A stretch of 64,000 bases of DNA from Anaerosoma tenue (GCF_023161965.1 NZ_JALNTY010000004.1:62001-126000); one strand, 5' to 3'. Positions 10,698-58,759 are shown, numbered from the stretch's first letter. The notes: generated by a model from the sequence alone, not told the origin. Translations and numbers: made by a program.

Positions 10698-10820
10698 CGC
10701 TCCGGCATTCGGGTCCGGGTCTCGGGTGGCGGTATGTCGTGAACCTGGTCAGGTCCGGAAGGAAGCAGCCATAAGCGGCCTCTGCCGGGTGCCCGGGACC
10801 TGGTCCCGAACGCCGGAGCG
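10698..10820 (+). ncRNA. ffs: Small bacterial signal recognition particle RNA (4.5S type)
   Basis: The segment carries the near-invariant SRP RNA core: a loop reading GTCAGGTCCGGAAGGAAGCA followed by GCC, then the 3' side of the asymmetric loop. The ends pair as one long hairpin, CGCTCCGGC at the 5' end with GCCGGAGCG at the 3' end (10812-10820). The length of about 123 nt fits the short form without an Alu domain. It lies directly upstream of dnaX, a common bacterial arrangement. The exact ends are set by the terminal pairing, not by data. Confidence 0.93.
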
Positions 10821-50823: not shown

Positions 50824-53151
50824 ATGTCCACGAAAGATGACAAGACGCAGGTCCCTGACGTATTGCCGCTCATACCCCTGCGAGACCTCATCATCTTCCC
50901 CAATCTCGTGGTGCCGCTGTTCGTCGGCCGGGAGCGCTCCATCAGCGCGCTCGAACAGTGCATGAGGACCGATCATCTGGTCGCGCTCGTGACGCAACGT
51001 GAAGCCGCCACGCAGGACCCCGGACCCTCGGACATCTACGACGTGGGCTGTGTGGTGACCGTCCTGCAGGAGCTTAAGCTCCCCGATGGGACCGCCAAGG
51101 CGCTCGTGGAAGGCGTGCAGCGCATACGCATCCTCGAGTACCTGGAGTCGGATCCGTACTTCAAGGTGCGTGTGGAGATCATCGAGGAACCGCAGGAAGC
51201 CGATGTGGAGACCAAGGCGCTGATGCGGAACCTCGTCACCGACTTCGAGAGCGCCTCGCAACTCGGCAAGCCGATCCCTCAGGAGGTCCTTGCCGCGGCT
51301 TCGGCGATCGAGGAGCCGGGCCGCCTGGCCGACTTCGTGACGTTCCACCTCTCGCTCAAGATCGAGGAGAAGCAGGAGATCCTTGAGGCTCTGGACCCGA
51401 AAGAGCGTCTGCAGAAGACATCGACGTTCCTGCGCAAGGAGCTCGAGATCCTCGAGCTCGGCTCCAGGATCCAGAACCGTGTCAAGGAGTCGATGTCCAA
51501 GAGTCAGCGCGAGTACTTCCTCAGAGAGCAGCTCAAGGCGATCCAGCAGGAGCTCGGGCAGTACGACGAAGCCCAGGCGGAGATCGACGAGTATCGCGAG
51601 AAGGTCGCAGCTTCCGGTATGCCGGAGGATGTGGAGGCCAAGGCGCTCAAGGAGCTCGGCAGGCTGGAGAAGATGCCTCAGGCGGCCGCCGAGACGGGCG
51701 TGATCCGCACGTATCTCGATTGGCTGACCGGGCTGCCGTGGGATACCTCCGACGAGGAGAAGCTCGACCTGGTGGAGGCGCAGGCGATCCTGGACGAGGA
51801 TCACTACGGCCTCGAGAAGGTCAAGGAGCGTGTGCTCGAGTACCTTGCCGTACACAAGCTCACGGACCACATGCGTGGGCCGATCCTCTGCTTCGTGGGA
51901 CCTCCCGGCGTGGGCAAGACGTCCATCGGCAAGTCGATCGCCAGGGCGCTCAACCGCAAGTTCATCCGCATGTCCCTCGGCGGGGTGCGCGACGAGGCCG
52001 AGATCCGCGGGCATCGTCGTACGTACGTCGGGGCGTTGCCGGGTCGTATCATCCAATCGATCAACCAGGTGGGGACCGACAACCCCGTCTTCATGATGGA
52101 CGAGGTCGACAAGGTGGGTATGGATTTTCGTGGCGACCCCACGTCGGCGCTGCTCGAGGTCCTGGACCCTGAGCAGAACAACTCCTTCCAGGACCACTAT
52201 CTCGAGGTGCCGTTCGATCTGTCGGACGTCATGTTCATCACCACGGCCAACGTCCTCGATCCTATCCCGCCGGCGCTGCGGGACCGCATGGAGGTCATCC
52301 ACTTCCCCGGCTATACCGAGGACGAGAAGCTCCACATCGCACGGAGGTATCTCGTTCCCAAGCAGCTCAAGGAGCACGGACTCACCACGAAGATGATCTC
52401 GATCACGGACGCTGCGCTTCGCGAGATCATCCGCCGTTACACGCGTGAGGCGGGCGTGCGCAACCTGGAGCGTCAGATCGCCACGATCTGCCGTCAGGTT
52501 GCACGTAAGGTCGTGGAGGGAGAGACCGGCAAGACGAGCGTCACCGGCAAGGCGATCCACTCGTATCTTGGCCCGGAGAAGTTCACCTTCGGTCTGGCCG
52601 AGAAGAAGGACGAGGTGGGGGTGGCCACCGGGCTCGTGTGGACCGAGGTGGGCGGCGACGTGATCTTCATCGAGGCGACGACGATGAAGGGCAAGGGCAA
52701 CCTCGTGCTGACCGGCCAGCTGGGCGATGTCATGCGCGAGTCCGCTCAGGCCGCGGTGAGTTGGATCCGCGCCAACGCGGCGGACCTCGAGGTCGACCCG
52801 GACTTCGTCGAGGCGCTCGACCTGCATATCCATGTCCCGGCGGCCGCCATCCCGAAGGACGGCCCGTCGGCAGGCATCACGATGGCAACCGCGCTGCTGT
52901 CCGCGCTCAGGGGCGCACGCGTCAAGCGCAAGGTGGCGATGACCGGCGAGATCACGCTGCGGGGGAGGGTGCTCCCCGTGGGCGGCCTCAAGGAGAAGCT
53001 CCTTGCGGCGCATCGCGCAGGCATCAAGACGGTGCTCATACCCAGCGAGAACACGCGGGACCTCGAGCTCGTTCCCGAGCATGTGAGGACCGAGATGGAG
53101 ATCGTCCCCGTGGCGACCATGGATGACGTGCTCGCGCTCGCTTTCGCCTAG
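50824..53151 (+). CDS. lon: ATP-dependent protease Lon
   Basis: This 775-residue protein has a Lon substrate-binding domain ([20 protein letters not shown]) and a long helical linker. The AAA+ domain has GPPGVGKT near residue 359. The protease domain holds Ser682 in PKDGPSAG and Lys725 in [14 protein letters not shown]. It degrades misfolded and regulatory proteins in the cytoplasm. A weak GATTAT (50775-50780) may be its -10. No heat-shock inverted repeat (HAIR) was seen. Confidence 0.96.
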
Positions 53152-53255: not shown

Positions 53256-53271
53256 TGTGACGTAGATTACA
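53256..53271 (+). promoter_or_regulatory. CRP-type site upstream of the adhesin leader
   Basis: TGTGA-CGTAGA-TTACA matches the CRP consensus TGTGA-N6-TCACA with one mismatch. A larger, slightly bulged inverted repeat, GTCAACACATAGTGTGAC (53244-53261), overlaps it. The site lies about 235 bases before the adhesin start. Confidence 0.5.
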
Positions 53272-53277
53272 GTCGCT

Positions 53278-53430
53278 CCACTGCGGGTACAAAGTCTTAC
53301 TCCAAGACGGAGTGATTGAAAACCGAAAGCACGACCTGAGTGGGAGACGCGGATACGTCGGACATATCCCCGGTCACCGTGGTCCGGCGTGGAGTCAGTG
53401 GTGAGACCGACCCGATCAAGGGTCGGTCTC
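53278..53430 (+). promoter_or_regulatory. Structured leader of the adhesin gene, candidate riboswitch or attenuator
   Basis: This fills most of the 343-base gap between lon and the adhesin gene. CCACTG (53278-53283) pairs with CAGTGG (53396-53401), closing a domain of about 124 nt. It is followed at once by a strong terminator hairpin. Inside, GTCTT/AAGAC and ACTCC/GGAGT are overlapping alternatives. I could not match it to a known riboswitch class. It may equally be lon's 3' region. Confidence 0.35.
53403..53430 (+). terminator. Rho-independent terminator before the adhesin gene
   Basis: GAGACCGACCC and GGGTCGGTCTC pair perfectly over 11 bases around GATCAA, followed by GTTCATTTTC. It lies 252 bases after the lon stop and 65 bases before the adhesin start, so it either ends the lon transcript or attenuates the adhesin. 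Confidence 0.8.
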
Positions 53431-53494
53431 GTTCATTTTCTGGAGACGTGTTCTACGCGCCTTCGTGGACGGGGGAAGCAGGGAGGTGTCTACG

Positions 53495-56065
53495 ATGACG
53501 GCACAAGTGATGAAGGGAATGCATAGGCGAGGCGCATTGTGGCGCGTCTTCGCCGCGTACGTGGCCTTCATACTCGCTCTGGCGGTAGCCGGACCGGGCA
53601 TGACGGTCCTCGCGGCGGAAGGCGAAGCAGTGCCACAGCCGCTTGCCGAGAAGGCGACGGAGGAGGTCCTGCCGGAAGTCCCGGCTGAGGATCCTCTGGA
53701 GGCCCCGGCAGAGGAGCCGCTCGAGCCAGCCACCGAGCCACCGGCGGACGAGCCGGAGCCGGTAGAGGATGCAGCTCCGGCCGATGAGCCTGAGGGCGAT
53801 GAAATCGCACTGCAGGCTTCGGTCGAGGCGCCCGTCGCGACGGTAGCTGCGCTTGTGGCTCCCGCCAAGGCGGAGAAGGACGAGGGTGACAACTCTTGGA
53901 TCTGCGCCGGCGGCGTGAAGCTTGATGGTTCGCCCCGCACCGGCACGTACACGTGGGATACGTCAGGCACCGAGGAGACTCCCACCACGCCGTCAGACTA
54001 CGAGCTCTCGATAGTCACCGCTATGACGGATGACGGCATGGTGATGAGCTTCACGTCCAACTACCCGGTCACCAAGGTCCGGGTGAAGGGCGGAGACGGC
54101 TACATTGACTATGATTACTCGCCTGGTGTGTTGTCAGGGTCTGGTCTGCATGCTCCGGTCAACGATTCCGGGAAGTATGCGGACATCAGCCACATCGTGT
54201 TCTGCTTCGACCTGAGCGAGCCTCACGACTCGCACATCATCGTGATGAAGTTCCGCGATGACGTTGTGACGAACGGCGAGCACGACGGCGGCGAGGGTTG
54301 GCTCGAAGGATTCGCCTTCGATCTCTATGAGGGCGCATCTGAGACCGGTCCGTGGACCAAGGTGGCCACCGAGACCACCACTGGCGCAAGCGGCCAGGCC
54401 GATTTCGGCATGTGGCCCACGGGTTGGTACAAGATCGTCGAGGTGTTGAGCCCCGCGCAGATTGCGGCAGGCGAGACCCCCACGTCGGGTGATCCGCTCG
54501 GCGAGATGGTCTTCTACCACACCGGGCAGGTCAACTCCGAGAAGCGTTTCGGCAACATCATCGAAGAGCTTCCCCCCGAGGAAGGCGACCTCGTGATCTA
54601 CAAGTTCCACGACCTCGATGAGGACGGGGAATACGACGAGGGCGAGCCGATGCTCGAGGGCTGGGAGTTCGAGATCTTCGTGGGCCAGAGCTTGACTGCA
54701 ACGGGTACCACCGGGGCCGATGGCTCGCTGTCGTTCCCGGGTCTGGACCCCGGCGAGTACAGCGCTACGGAGACGCTCGTGAGTGGCTGGGTCAACACCA
54801 CACCGCTCACTCAGAGCACCACGGTCGTTGATGGCGAGACGGCCGAGCTGTGGTTCGGCAACGTCGAGGAAGAGCTTCCTCCTGAGGAAGGCGACCTCGT
54901 GATCTACAAGTTCCACGACCTCGATGAGGACGGGGAATACGACGAGGGCGAGCCGATGCTCGAGGACTGGGAGTTCACGGTCACCGTCGAGACACCACCG
55001 CTTCAGATCGAGCAGGTCACCCCTTCGGCGATCATGCTGATCGGCACCGGTCTCACCGACGGTGACGGCATGCTCGAGTTCCTTGGCTTGGATCCCGCTG
55101 AGTACACCGTGACTGAGACGCTGCAGGACGGCTGGGTCAACACCACGCCGCTCACGCAGAAGGGGACCGTGGTCGATGGCGAGACCACCGAGGTATGGTT
55201 CGGCAACATCGAGGAAGAGCTTCCTCCTGAGGAAGGCGACCTCGTGATCTACAAGTTCCACGACCTCGATGAGGACGGGGAATACGACGAGGGCGAGCCG
55301 ATGCTCGAGGACTGGGAGTTCACGGTCACCGTGGAGTCCGAGCCCATCCTCAACGACCAGATCAACCCTTCGGCGATCATGCTGATCGGGACCGGTCTCA
55401 CCGACGGTGACGGCATGCTCGAGTTCCTTGGCTTGGATCCCGCTGAGTACACCGTGACCGAGACGCTGCAGGACGGCTGGGTCAACACCACGCCGCTCAC
55501 GCAGGTCGCGACGGTCGTCGATGGCGAGACCACCGAGGTATGGTTCGGCAACGTCGAGTTGTTCCTCCCGTTCACCGAACTGGACCTCGCAATCACCAAG
55601 GTGGCCGATCGTGACAGTGCCGCTCCTGGTGCTCTCGTGACATACACTTTGACCTACTGGAACAATGGCGAACTTGCTGCCGAGAACTACACGATCGTCG
55701 ATGATTTCGACGAGCGGTACGTCACCGTTGTCGATGCCAACGGCGGCGTCGTGTCGGGTGGGAAGATCACCTGGACGATGGCCGGTCCGCTTGCGCTCGA
55801 AGACGGTAAGCAGACGCTGACCTACACGGTGCGGATCGACGAGGACATGCCGGATGGCCGGACCAACGTCGACAACGTCGTTGTGATCGATCATCCGCAG
55901 GATGCCGATCCCACCAACAACTCCGACGATGAGCGCGTCGTGGTGCGGGTAGGCGAACCGTTCCTGCCGTTCACCGGTACGGAGGCGTGGCTGCTGCTTG
56001 CGGCAGCGTTGGCAGCCGGCACGGCCGGTCTGGCGCTCAGGCTTGCACCCCGCAAGACGTCGTAG
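53495..56065 (+). CDS. LPXTG-anchored surface adhesin with SdrD-B-like repeats
   Basis: This 856-residue protein has a signal peptide (FAAYVAFILALAVAGPG) and an acidic, proline-rich spacer. An N-terminal domain of about 200 residues follows. After it comes a B-type repeat variant (MKFRDDVVTNGEHDGGEG), then three SdrD-B-like repeats starting near residues 357, 459 and 574. Each carries the calcium-loop pattern DLDEDGEYDEGEP. A DUF11-like beta domain follows (about 697-815). The end has LPFTG at 824-828, a hydrophobic helix and a basic tail, the sortase signal. The ATG at 53495 follows GGAGG with eight-base spacing. Repeats 2 and 3 are almost identical at base level. Confidence 0.92.
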   Translation: MTAQVMKGMHRRGALWRVFAAYVAFILALAVAGPGMTVLAAEGEAVPQPLAEKATEEVLPEVPAEDPLEAPAEEPLEPATEPPADEPEPVEDAAPADEPEGDEIALQASVEAPVATVAALVAPAKAEKDEGDNSWICAGGVKLDGSPRTGTYTWDTSGTEETPTTPSDYELSIVTAMTDDGMVMSFTSNYPVTKVRVKGGDGYIDYDYSPGVLSGSGLHAPVNDSGKYADISHIVFCFDLSEPHDSHIIVMKFRDDVVTNGEHDGGEGWLEGFAFDLYEGASETGPWTKVATETTTGASGQADFGMWPTGWYKIVEVLSPAQIAAGETPTSGDPLGEMVFYHTGQVNSEKRFGNIIEELPPEEGDLVIYKFHDLDEDGEYDEGEPMLEGWEFEIFVGQSLTATGTTGADGSLSFPGLDPGEYSATETLVSGWVNTTPLTQSTTVVDGETAELWFGNVEEELPPEEGDLVIYKFHDLDEDGEYDEGEPMLEDWEFTVTVETPPLQIEQVTPSAIMLIGTGLTDGDGMLEFLGLDPAEYTVTETLQDGWVNTTPLTQKGTVVDGETTEVWFGNIEEELPPEEGDLVIYKFHDLDEDGEYDEGEPMLEDWEFTVTVESEPILNDQINPSAIMLIGTGLTDGDGMLEFLGLDPAEYTVTETLQDGWVNTTPLTQVATVVDGETTEVWFGNVELFLPFTELDLAITKVADRDSAAPGALVTYTLTYWNNGELAAENYTIVDDFDERYVTVVDANGGVVSGGKITWTMAGPLALEDGKQTLTYTVRIDEDMPDGRTNVDNVVVIDHPQDADPTNNSDDERVVVRVGEPFLPFTGTEAWLLLAAALAAGTAGLALRLAPRKTS
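54563..55558 (+). repeat. Three tandem near-identical repeats in the adhesin gene
   Basis: Units start at 54563, 54869 and 55214, that is 306 and 345 bases apart. Each opens with the same stretch of about 95 bases, differing by only a few bases. Units 2 and 3 are nearly identical along almost their whole length. The pattern allows change of repeat number by recombination. Confidence 0.9.
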
Positions 56066-56110
56066 CGCACACCGGTTGTGAGGGGCCCGGCACTGTCCGA
56101 CTGCCGGGGC

Positions 56111-56140
56111 GAGGGGCGCACTCGAGAGGGTGCGCCCCTC
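56111..56140 (+). terminator. Terminator of the adhesin gene
   Basis: GAGGGGCGCAC pairs perfectly with GTGCGCCCCTC around an eight-base loop, followed by TTTGTG. It lies 45 bases after the adhesin stop. Confidence 0.85.
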
Positions 56141-56156
56141 TTTGTGCGCATACAAC

Positions 56157-56186
56157 GAGACCCCGGGGAGGGAGGTCCGGGGTCTC
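56157..56186 (-). terminator. Terminator of the secreted HExxH gene
   Basis: GAGACCCCGG and CCGGGGTCTC pair perfectly around a ten-base loop, 27 bases downstream of the HExxH stop on the minus strand. It is followed by a short GTTGTA. Confidence 0.65.
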
Positions 56187-56213
56187 GTGTCGCTCCTATG
56201 GGGGTGCCGCGTC

Positions 56214-56810
56214 TTACAGCGCCGGGATGTTCTCGCCCCAGTCGATGACACCGTTGTCACGCCAGTCGAGGATGTGTCCCACCTCGTGGGCGATGATGCG
56301 CTCCAGGCTGCTGGTGTGCGTGGGGCTGATCACGATGCGGCCCGACTGGTAGTAGCAGATCGCCTGGTATCCCTTGGCGTCGCCGAAGGTGACGGTCGAG
56401 CCGGCGAGGATCGGGTACTTGGAGATGTAGCGGGCCAGGATCGACCGCGCGGTTGCCGTCTCGTCAACGGGAGCGGAGGTGGTGCTGCGGGCGCTTGAGC
56501 TCGTGGTGGATGCCGACGAAGTCCGGGTGCTGCTGGTGCGGGCCGCGCTTGTGGCGGCTGGCGCGGGCGCCTCGATCTTCGTGGCCGTGCGTGCGGCGGT
56601 GCGAACGCTCTTCGCGAGCGGCTCGACCGAGTCCGCGACGAGTGCCGCTGTGTGCGTTTCGGCACTGAGCCTGTTGCGGAAGACGCCGCCGATGTTGGCT
56701 GCGGCGACCGCGTCATCGACCGGTGCGAAGCCTGCGACGAGAACGAGTGCGAGGGCAACGAGCGTGGTCGCCGCTGCGAACCTCATCGTCCGGGTGGTGA
56801 TGCTGGTCAT
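56214..56810 (-). CDS. Secreted putative metalloprotease (HExxH)
   Basis: This 198-residue protein has a signal peptide (FAAATTLVALALVLVAGF) and a long Ser/Thr/Ala-rich spacer (about 60-110). A C-terminal domain has HEVGHILDWRD near residue 174. HExxH supplies two zinc ligands. The Asp six residues after it sits where the third ligand lies in snapalysin-type metzincins (HExxHxxGxxD), although the glycine is Asp here. The domain ends only 24 residues after the start of HExxH, so activity needs proof. Its leader holds a c-di-GMP riboswitch. The ATG at 56810 fits the signal peptide; an upstream start is less likely. Confidence 0.8.
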   Translation of the reverse strand: MTSITTRTMRFAAATTLVALALVLVAGFAPVDDAVAAANIGGVFRNRLSAETHTAALVADSVEPLAKSVRTAARTATKIEAPAPAATSAARTSSTRTSSASTTSSSARSTTSAPVDETATARSILARYISKYPILAGSTVTFGDAKGYQAICYYQSGRIVISPTHTSSLERIIAHEVGHILDWRDNGVIDWGENIPAL

Positions 56811-56845
56811 GGTGGATCGCCCCTTGTTCGAGTTCCTCGCGCACA

Positions 56846-56886
56846 TCGGCCCGACTTCTCCTCAAGGCGCAGAGGTGTCGGGCCGA
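56846..56886 (-). promoter_or_regulatory. Ten-base-pair hairpin, expression platform of the riboswitch
   Basis: TCGGCCCGAC and GTCGGGCCGA pair perfectly; the loop itself holds CCTC/GAGG. On the minus strand it lies between the riboswitch and the start codon of the HExxH gene. It is a candidate terminator or switch hairpin, though no T-run follows. Confidence 0.55.
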
Positions 56887-56899
56887 CAACGCGTGGCTC

Positions 56900-56995
56900 G
56901 TACCTTCGGCAATCCGGCTGTCGTGGGAAGCGAGGCTTCCGGTAGACCCGTGATTTTGCGAAGCCGACCTTTCGGCCGACCGTGCCTTTTCGGGA
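56900..56995 (-). ncRNA. Cyclic-di-GMP-I (GEMM) riboswitch
   Basis: Read on the minus strand, the leader shows the class I pattern in order. First a GGCA that pairs with a later TGCC, then a stem closed by a GAAA tetraloop (GGCCGAAAGGTC). The conserved CGCAAAATCACGGGTCTA follows, a second hairpin (GGAAGC...GCTTCC), and the closing ACAGCCGGATTGCCG. The order and spacing match GEMM RNAs known from Geobacter and other bacteria. The 5' end is about 90 bases from the protease start. Whether c-di-GMP turns the gene on or off is unknown. Confidence 0.82.
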
Positions 56996-57060
56996 GCGAT
57001 CCGATGTTCGCTTTTCAATCCTGCCGTACACTTCTCATATCGGCAGCGGTACGGCTGGTC

Positions 57061-57088
57061 TTTATAGCATATTGTGTCGTTCGTCACA
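57061..57088 (-). promoter_or_regulatory. Promoter of the HExxH gene
   Basis: On the minus strand TATAAA (57066-57061) is a good -10; a weak TGTGAC (57088-57083) lies 16 bases upstream. Transcription would begin about 60 bases before the riboswitch. The -35 overlaps the first CRP-like site. Confidence 0.45.
57073..57088. promoter_or_regulatory. CRP-type site 1 in the protease/sortase intergenic region
   Basis: TGTGT-CGTTCG-TCACA is one mismatch from TGTGA-N6-TCACA. Its centre is 23 bases from the next site. Confidence 0.5.
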
Positions 57089-57095
57089 GGATTCT

Positions 57096-57111
57096 TGTGA
57101 GGAACGTCACA
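57096..57111. promoter_or_regulatory. CRP-type site 2, perfect consensus half-sites
   Basis: TGTGA-GGAACG-TCACA is a perfect match to the CRP palindrome. It lies 26 bases before the sortase start and about 50 bases upstream of the predicted protease transcription start. Confidence 0.62.
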
Positions 57112-57136
57112 CCGCTCGAGCGGAGGTCTGCAGAAC

Positions 57137-57808
57137 GTGCGCCTACGGGATCGCTGGATACGCGCAACAGGGAACCTCCTGCTCGGCGTCGCCCTAGGCC
57201 TTGGGTCGTACTACGGGCTCACGACCCTCGTCGGCTCCCATGCCCAGGAGGTCCTGCGCGACGAGGCGGCTGCGGTGGCTCCCTACCGGGCCGAGGCGCC
57301 CGACAAGGTCCTCGAGGCGCCCGATGGCCCCGCCCTGGACTTCTCTGGGTGGCATGAGGAGGACGAGGCGCACTGGCGGTCGCTCGATGCGGGTGCGGTG
57401 TTCGGGAGGATCGTGATCCCGGCGATCGGGTTGGATACCCTCGTGGTGAACGGCGTGAGTACCGCTGACCTGCGAAAAGGTCCCGGATGGATCGACTGGA
57501 CCGATCTCCCGGGGCCGGAGGGCACCTGCGGCATATCGGGACACCGCACGACCTACGGCGCGCCGTTCGCACGCGTGGATGAGCTCGTGCAGGGTGATAC
57601 CATCGACCTGTACTCACCGTACCGGCGCTATCGCTATTCTGTGACCGGTACGGTGATAGTGCGTCCGGACCAGATCGAGGTCGTAGCGCCAACGGAGCAC
57701 CCCTCATTGACGCTCACGGCCTGTCATCCGCCGTACAGCGCACGGTATCGCATAGCGGTACAGGCGGAACTCGTCGAAGTGCGGCGCGTCTCCGGAGATG
57801 CGCCATAG
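57137..57808 (+). CDS. Sortase (class D/E type)
   Basis: This 223-residue protein has an N-terminal membrane helix (about 10-32), an external spacer, then the sortase barrel. The catalytic His136 is in ISGHRTTYG, Cys196 is in LTLTACHPPYS, and an arginine follows in SARYRIAV. It should link LPxTG-type proteins such as the neighbouring LPFTG adhesin to the cell wall. The GTG start is ten bases after GGAGG. It lies divergent to the HExxH gene. Confidence 0.93.
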   Translation: MRLRDRWIRATGNLLLGVALGLGSYYGLTTLVGSHAQEVLRDEAAAVAPYRAEAPDKVLEAPDGPALDFSGWHEEDEAHWRSLDAGAVFGRIVIPAIGLDTLVVNGVSTADLRKGPGWIDWTDLPGPEGTCGISGHRTTYGAPFARVDELVQGDTIDLYSPYRRYRYSVTGTVIVRPDQIEVVAPTEHPSLTLTACHPPYSARYRIAVQAELVEVRRVSGDAP

Positions 57809-57817
57809 GGAGGCAGC

Positions 57818-58759
57818 ATGAGGGTGGTCGTAACGGGAGGCGCCGGATTCATCGGCGGTAATCTGGTCCACGCGCTGCTGGGTGGCGGGGCCGAGGTGAC
57901 GATCATCGACGACCTCTCAACAGGGTCGATGGACAACGTGCACCCGGCAGCCGCCTTCCGATGCCTGGACGTGCTGTCTCCGGAGGCGGCACAAGCCATC
58001 AGCGATGCGCATCCGGACGTGGTGGTCCACCTCGCCGCACAGGTGAGCGTTGCCGCTTCGCTGGCGGATCCGGCGTTCGACCGGGCGGTGAACGTAGATG
58101 GGACGCGCGCTGTGGCTGAGGCCGCGGTCGCTGCGGGTGCAAGGCGGGTCCTGTCGGCGTCCTCTGCCGCCGTGTACGGAGAACCGCAGGAGCTGCCGCT
58201 CACCGAGACGTCGCCCACTGCGCCTGCTGTGCCGTACGGCGCATCCAAGCTGGAGGCTGAGGGCGTCATCGCGGAGGTGCTGCGACCGGCGGGCGTGGAC
58301 TTCGCTTCTCTGCGGTTCGCGAACGTCTACGGACCCCGTCAGCGAGCCGAGGGTGAGGGAGGCGTGGTGGCGGAGTTCGCCTCTCGTATGGCGCGCGGTG
58401 AGACGCCGGTGATATTCGGCTCGGGCAGCCAGACCAGGGACTTCATCTACGTGGCCGACGTGGTCAACGCGTGTGTCCTGGCTGCGACCCACGAGGGGGT
58501 ACTCGCCCATCCCGGCGTGAGCGGCCCCGCGTACAACATCTCCACGGGGACGGCGACGTCCGTGAACATGCTGGCCGAGGGGCTGCGGGTGGCCATGCGG
58601 TACCCCGGGGCGATCGAGCGGGCGGATGCCCGCGAGGGGGACGTCGAAGAAAGCGTCCTCTCTCCCGCAAAAGCGGCGGATGCCTTCGGCTGGAGCGCAG
58701 CGGTGGAACTGCAGGCCGGACTCGCCGCGACCGGGACCTGGTTCATGCAGCAGTCGTGA
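57818..58759 (+). CDS. NAD-dependent sugar epimerase/dehydratase (GalE-like)
   Basis: This 313-residue short-chain dehydrogenase has the NAD-binding VVVTGGAGFIGGNLVHALL and the VVHLAAQVSV segment. Ser and Tyr-x-x-x-Lys lie in SASSAAVYG and PYGASKLEAE, and NVYGPRQ and GSGSQTRDFIYVADV follow. This is the UDP-glucose 4-epimerase group. It starts nine bases after the sortase stop and may supply sugars for surface glycans, by context. Confidence 0.9.
   Translation: MRVVVTGGAGFIGGNLVHALLGGGAEVTIIDDLSTGSMDNVHPAAAFRCLDVLSPEAAQAISDAHPDVVVHLAAQVSVAASLADPAFDRAVNVDGTRAVAEAAVAAGARRVLSASSAAVYGEPQELPLTETSPTAPAVPYGASKLEAEGVIAEVLRPAGVDFASLRFANVYGPRQRAEGEGGVVAEFASRMARGETPVIFGSGSQTRDFIYVADVVNACVLAATHEGVLAHPGVSGPAYNISTGTATSVNMLAEGLRVAMRYPGAIERADAREGDVEESVLSPAKAADAFGWSAAVELQAGLAATGTWFMQQS

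Follow-up and report, generated by a model that had tools for sequence, protein, structure and literature searches.

How might a single second messenger govern both an adhesin and a protease that could cut it loose? The question is raised by three genes for cell-surface work in a 64,000-nucleotide stretch of the Anaerosoma tenue genome (GCF_023161965.1, NZ_JALNTY010000004.1:62001-126000; hereafter the window). A preliminary description of this DNA reported an LPFTG-anchored repeat adhesin, an opposite-strand secreted HExxH protein behind a class I riboswitch for cyclic diguanylate (c-di-GMP), and a sortase, all packed together, and each of the three genes was confirmed. We propose that they form a conserved c-di-GMP-controlled attach/release module, the best explanation of the locus as a whole, to which we give a probability of about 45%. 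At the level of sequence, this proposal builds on two aptamers, a terminator overlap, a promoter, a covarying leader and conservation among relatives. The block holds two c-di-GMP aptamers by cmscan, of different classes, one for each of the two convergent genes. Counts below come from related genomes, many of them metagenome assemblies with cut contigs, and are not independent.

The adhesin (53495..56065, plus strand, 856 residues; open reading frame and Pfam) starts at an ATG at 53495 preceded by the ribosome-binding site GGGAGGTG, and comprises a signal peptide, three SpaA/SdrD_B repeats each led by EELPPEEGD, a DUF11 domain and, at the C terminus, the anchor EPFLPFTG. Directly 5' of it stands a c-di-GMP-II-GAG riboswitch aptamer (RF03169; 53334..53421, plus strand; 64.5 bits, cut-off 40) that was overlooked in the first reading. 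The 5' arm (53403-53413) of an intrinsic terminator (53403..53440, plus strand; fold -24.6 kcal/mol, z -7.3) doubles as the 3' core of this aptamer, an overlap present in 32 of the 35 GAG aptamers examined. Because aptamer and terminator are mutually exclusive, the predicted binding of c-di-GMP to the GAG aptamer should switch the adhesin on: at high c-di-GMP the overlapping terminator would be blocked and sortase-anchored adhesin would be made. In a search of the open literature for the function of c-di-GMP-II-GAG, one paper was found to give no more than the name. The sign deduced here agrees with that of class II switches in Clostridioides difficile (PMC6200980). Two other adhesin loci (L132 and L138, in G044 and G052) carry a tandem pair of GAG aptamers on the same strand as the adhesin; in the nearer of the two, the terminator overlap is missing.

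The protease lies behind a c-di-GMP-I riboswitch aptamer (RF01051; 56905..56996, minus strand), which scores 55 bits against a cut-off of 35 and bears out the original assignment; it is the only class I aptamer in the whole genome, which has 11 GGDEF matches. The aptamer start reads AAGGCA in the inspected leaders, with a G at what we take to be position 20, as in the c-di-GMP rather than the cyclic GMP-AMP type. A G20A change alters the ligand preference of class I aptamers (PMC6274999). The 5' flank of the aptamer (56993..57011, minus strand) provides the 5' strands of two long-range helices. In helix S1, the flank (57002-56993) pairs with the protease ribosome-binding site (56814..56823, minus strand), in the window as GGAUCGCUCC:GGGGCGAUCC. 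In the alternative helix S0, the segment just upstream (57011-57001) pairs with a segment 3' of an inner hairpin (56839..56849, minus strand), here as GCGAACAUCGG:CCGAUGUGCGC, and that hairpin is itself enclosed by an outer stem. S1, S0 and the outer stem covary in 42 leaders, native pairing exceeding permuted pairing with z-scores of -8.1, -7.5 and -7.6, respectively (0/20000), and the covariation persists when one genome is taken per family (z -4.3, -4.0 and -3.1). Since the pairing in S0 crosses that in S1 as well as that in the outer stem, the leader is predicted to adopt two global states. A plain intrinsic terminator was ruled out as the expression platform in most genomes, whose leaders have no U-tract; the g9 genomes do have one. 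The local P1 helix of the aptamer was dismissed as the switching helix, since it shows no covariation in the 42 leaders.

The leader could thus mask the ribosome-binding site of the protease in S1, and the sign of the switch depends on which state the ligand favors. The ligand usually stabilizes the closing helix of an aptamer. This, together with analogy to C. difficile, in which class I c-di-GMP switches are uniformly off and class II switches on (PMC6200980), favors an OFF switch, and we infer that the protease is most likely off at high c-di-GMP, provided that the ligand stabilizes S1. We regard as unlikely the opposite case, in which the class I switch turns its gene on. High c-di-GMP would then lead to expression of adhesin and protease together, and the role of the protease would be maturation or turnover of the adhesin, not opposition to it. 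That case would fit the minimum-energy fold, in which most of the ribosome-binding region is paired in every one of the 42 leaders; ligand stabilizing S0 or the local P1 would then expose the site, and S0 would also break the U-tailed hairpin of the g9 genomes. It sits poorly with the uniform behavior of class I switches in C. difficile, with the missing covariation of P1, and with the promoter of the protease, which suggests a programme distinct from adhesin expression.

This promoter is of the FliA/WhiG (sigma-28) type, TAAAG-N15-GCCGATA (57038..57064, minus strand). Of 46 class I leaders, 45 are preceded at a constant distance by the pattern TAAA-N15/16-GCCGATA with a score of at least 9/11 (2.6% in shuffles), and the reversed sigma-28 pattern gave 4 matches against about 90. 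FliA/WhiG is above cut-off in 66 of 71 genomes, and flagellin was found in none of the 71 in a search that included positive controls, which rules out flagellar motility as the sense of the promoter. Other strict sigma-28 sites, including the sole other one in the A. tenue genome, precede type IV pilin genes. We propose that the protease would be transcribed from a promoter type that it has in common with type IV pilin genes, so that at falling c-di-GMP levels, with the pilus programme active, protease would be made and the adhesin trimmed. The genome presumably belongs to the order Anaerosomatales, cultured members of which are non-motile and piliated, one strain being piliated only on ferrihydrite (PMC9686372). 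As an observation in its own right, the major type IV pilin gene stands behind a FliA/WhiG-type promoter in flagellin-less Coriobacteriia (L158; C1:533090-533115, minus strand, in the A. tenue genome), and such pilin promoters suggest a repurposed flagellar sigma factor. Upstream of the protease promoter lies a CRP-like palindrome, TGTGACGAACGACACA (57073..57088, minus strand), and a second, TGTGACGTAGATTACA (53256..53271, plus strand), lies 5' of the adhesin leader. The preliminary description had called the module CRP-wired. Of 46 class I aptamers, 35 have a CRP-like site on their 5' side, at orthologous protease promoters (shuffles 0.8%), and so do 14 of 35 GAG aptamers (shuffles 0.3%).

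The protein encoded behind this leader is predicted to be a secreted minimal HExxH zinc metalloprotease of 198 residues (56214..56810, minus strand), on the evidence of homologues, AlphaFold2 (AF2) and Foldseek. Its likeliest start, 56810, is Met13 of the longest open reading frame, which begins at 56846, and is conserved in 45 of 47 sequences; a signal peptide is present. With numbering from 56846, His187, Glu188, His191, Asp194 and Glu205 are kept in 51/51 homologues, the motif reads HEVGH, and Glu205 is the predicted third zinc ligand. Only 19 residues lie between the motif and the end of the protein. In the AF2 model, residues 118-195 are well modelled, the long N-terminal part is of low confidence, and nothing structured follows the helix 169-186. 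Searches of the window protease against Pfam, NCBIfam and PDB sequences gave no fitting family, Pfam placed no member of the protease family in a peptidase family, and a PDB search with a 49-sequence profile gave no relevant match. Foldseek ranked minigluzincins at the top, namely selecase, projannalysin and proabylysin (E 0.02-0.17). These are the closest solved folds of the catalytic domain, with a best probability of 1.00, yet that match is weak (E only 0.02, TM-score 0.48 by target length) and there is no detectable sequence relation; unlike them, the protein here is secreted, with a long N-terminal part and a very short tail.

That the HExxH protein is not clearly a PPEP, as was first stated, is borne out by comparison of family, length and fold. 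In PPEPs, the active-site helix is followed by a C-terminal domain (PMC12828418). The protein has the HExxH motif in common with them, but it lacks the C-terminal domain, differs in family, length and fold, and has no conserved Pro-Pro sites in the neighboring candidate substrate; the 50 best fold matches, as listed, include no PPEP. The snapalysin-type motif HExxHxxGxxD, also put forward for comparison, is ruled out by motif position 8, which is Asp194 instead of Gly in all 51 homologues.

If the protease trims the adhesin, where would it cut? The suggestion that the EELPPEEGD linker offers Pro-Pro sites holds in part: the linker is present three times in the adhesin of the window, but most orthologous adhesins lack it, and the complete adhesins of G006, G011, G016 and G021, each beside an intact protease, have no PP after residue 150. 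Pro-Pro cleavage is thereby ruled out as the conserved logic. The sequence [E/D]PFLPFTG is nearly invariant among adhesins, and we infer that trimming would most likely occur near the wall anchor, with [E/D]PFLPFT, not Pro-Pro, as the best candidate site. An internal LP[FY]T hinge is found in 25 of 43 adhesins; most of these belong to one family by descent, which makes it a lead only and not a universal second cut site. The tails of adhesins in other classes (L205, L206, L207 and L210) have additional LPFT or LPYT motifs just before the true anchor, for example LPYTPDPTRGVLPYTSDSGLPPVLPYTG.

The trio proved to be conserved when it was sought in relatives, contrary to the possibility raised at the outset that it might not be. 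The protease was found in 50 genomes among 200 relatives searched, all in the same order. Of the 50 protease loci, 44 have a class I aptamer 5' of the gene, and a divergent sortase was detected at 37. Among the 49 loci that could be evaluated, 38 have a convergent LPFTG protein at a distance of 79-235 bp from the stop of the protease (39 raw matches less a spurious LPGTG in G047). Where such a protein is present and the locus is uncut, a GAG aptamer occurs in 24 of 28. Outside the order, the protease is found in 10 genomes of other classes of the phylum, with an aptamer of the class I or class I-GGC type at the gene in 6 and an LP[FY]TG neighbor in 4. It is highly improbable, in our judgment, that these are simply a loose cluster of cell-surface genes, with riboswitches acting on each gene independently and a protease that feeds on outside proteins. 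The neighborhood from lon to dnaK is stable in any case, a point in favor of such a cluster, but the opposed switch classes fall on exactly the adhesin/protease pair. In G030, moreover, the adhesin has been relocated to a different contig, where a GAG aptamer of its own precedes it in the same orientation, and the adhesin anchor module gave no match in 10 of 11 protease-less genomes searched, the eleventh (G056) having partial DUF11 matches only.

Conservation also bears on the identity of the substrate. The main target could be another surface protein, such as type IV pili or further substrates of sortase, with adjacency to the adhesin reflecting common signalling only. Co-regulation of the protease with type IV pilin would accord with this, as would its retention in six adhesin-less genomes; yet the gene stays beside the adhesin in most of the order's families, and this pairing reappears in other classes. 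Moreover, four of the six (G032, G042, G045 and G058, the only uncut protease loci of this kind) lack the class I switch, and the locus of G031 is cut. We consider this alternative improbable.

Several points weigh against an attach/release module. G051 has the protease and its class I aptamer with no adhesin, and G045, G058, G031 (on a cut contig), G032 and G042 likewise keep the protease without one. The sign of the class I switch cannot be read from sequence, given that the S0 alternative frees the ribosome-binding site, and the lack of covariation in P1 counts here as well. With a best fold match of E 0.02 and so short a chain after HExxH, catalytic activity is assumed. Finally, the cultured relatives are non-motile (PMC9686372), so that the state alternating with attachment may be marked by pili or by contact with minerals and not by swimming.

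The parallel drawn earlier with the CD2831/PPEP-1 (Zmp1) pair of C. difficile is closer than was claimed, since the adhesin has a class II-GAG switch: there too, a class II-switched, sortase-anchored adhesin neighbors a class I-switched secreted zinc metalloprotease (PMC6447587, PMC6200980). Here, in contrast, protease and PPEP have no relation, the adhesin carries the II-GAG variant of the aptamer, conserved Pro-Pro sites are lacking, the genes are convergent, the sigma-28 promoter is of the kind found at type IV pilin genes, the class I leader would mask the ribosome-binding site via long-range helices, and the hosts are free-living Coriobacteriia and other classes. The gene for PPEP-2 of Paenibacillus alvei, a secreted HExxH endopeptidase, similarly adjoins the gene of its surface substrate (PMC12828418), whereas the protease here has neither family nor Pro-Pro motif in common with it. 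A more distant parallel is LapA/LapG/LapD (PMC3032545), in which c-di-GMP governs protease release of an adhesin; that system is Gram-negative and uses protein-based inside-out signalling and another protease type in place of riboswitches. The module looks like an independently built stick-or-let-go circuit, convergent in logic with CD2831/PPEP-1 and kept across the order. We advance with considerable doubt the broader claim that the minimal secreted zinc metalloproteases are a previously undescribed family, class I-controlled in several classes of a single phylum, that releases adhesins at an anchor or hinge motif, [E/D]PFLP[FY]T, in an independently evolved circuit tied to a pilus sigma factor. 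The C. difficile circuit is regarded as a pathogen's colonization device. If our proposal is true, the same logic would operate in free-living subsurface actinobacteria with a different aptamer subclass, a different sigma factor and a protease that is unrelated, and riboswitch-opposed control of adhesin and protease would be a general solution, either repeatedly evolved or very old. It would also give an unannotated protease family a function and a testable substrate, and add a new expression platform for class I c-di-GMP riboswitches.

The adhesin, the convergent small HExxH gene and the divergent sortase are the only genes (open reading frames and Pfam) between lon (50824-53151) on the adhesin side and an epimerase gene (starting at 57818) on the sortase side. 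The sortase (57137..57808, plus strand) has a TLTAC active site and matches Pfam Sortase PF04203 (E=1.9e-28); its nearest NCBIfam model, NF033747, scores 107 bits, below the class E cut-off of 160. It probably anchors the neighboring adhesin. The other two class II-type (GAG-family) aptamers of the genome, L148 (C3:119115-119198) and L149 (C1:1001117-1001208), precede genes for a multi-CxxCH protein and a 1337-residue secreted CxxCH protein, which suggests that extracellular electron-transfer proteins may also be under c-di-GMP control. Among protease loci elsewhere, L136 (G048) has tandem protease genes with one class I aptamer each, and L208 (G365), from another class, has protease and sortase on the same strand behind one class I aptamer and, at a distance of about 3 kb, a gene for type IV pilin. 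The record of L066, titled Aeromicrobium sp., has a Coriobacteriia-type locus and is probably a mislabelled assembly. Elsewhere in the window, positions 10713-10808 match the bacterial small signal recognition particle RNA (RF00169, 74.8 bits).

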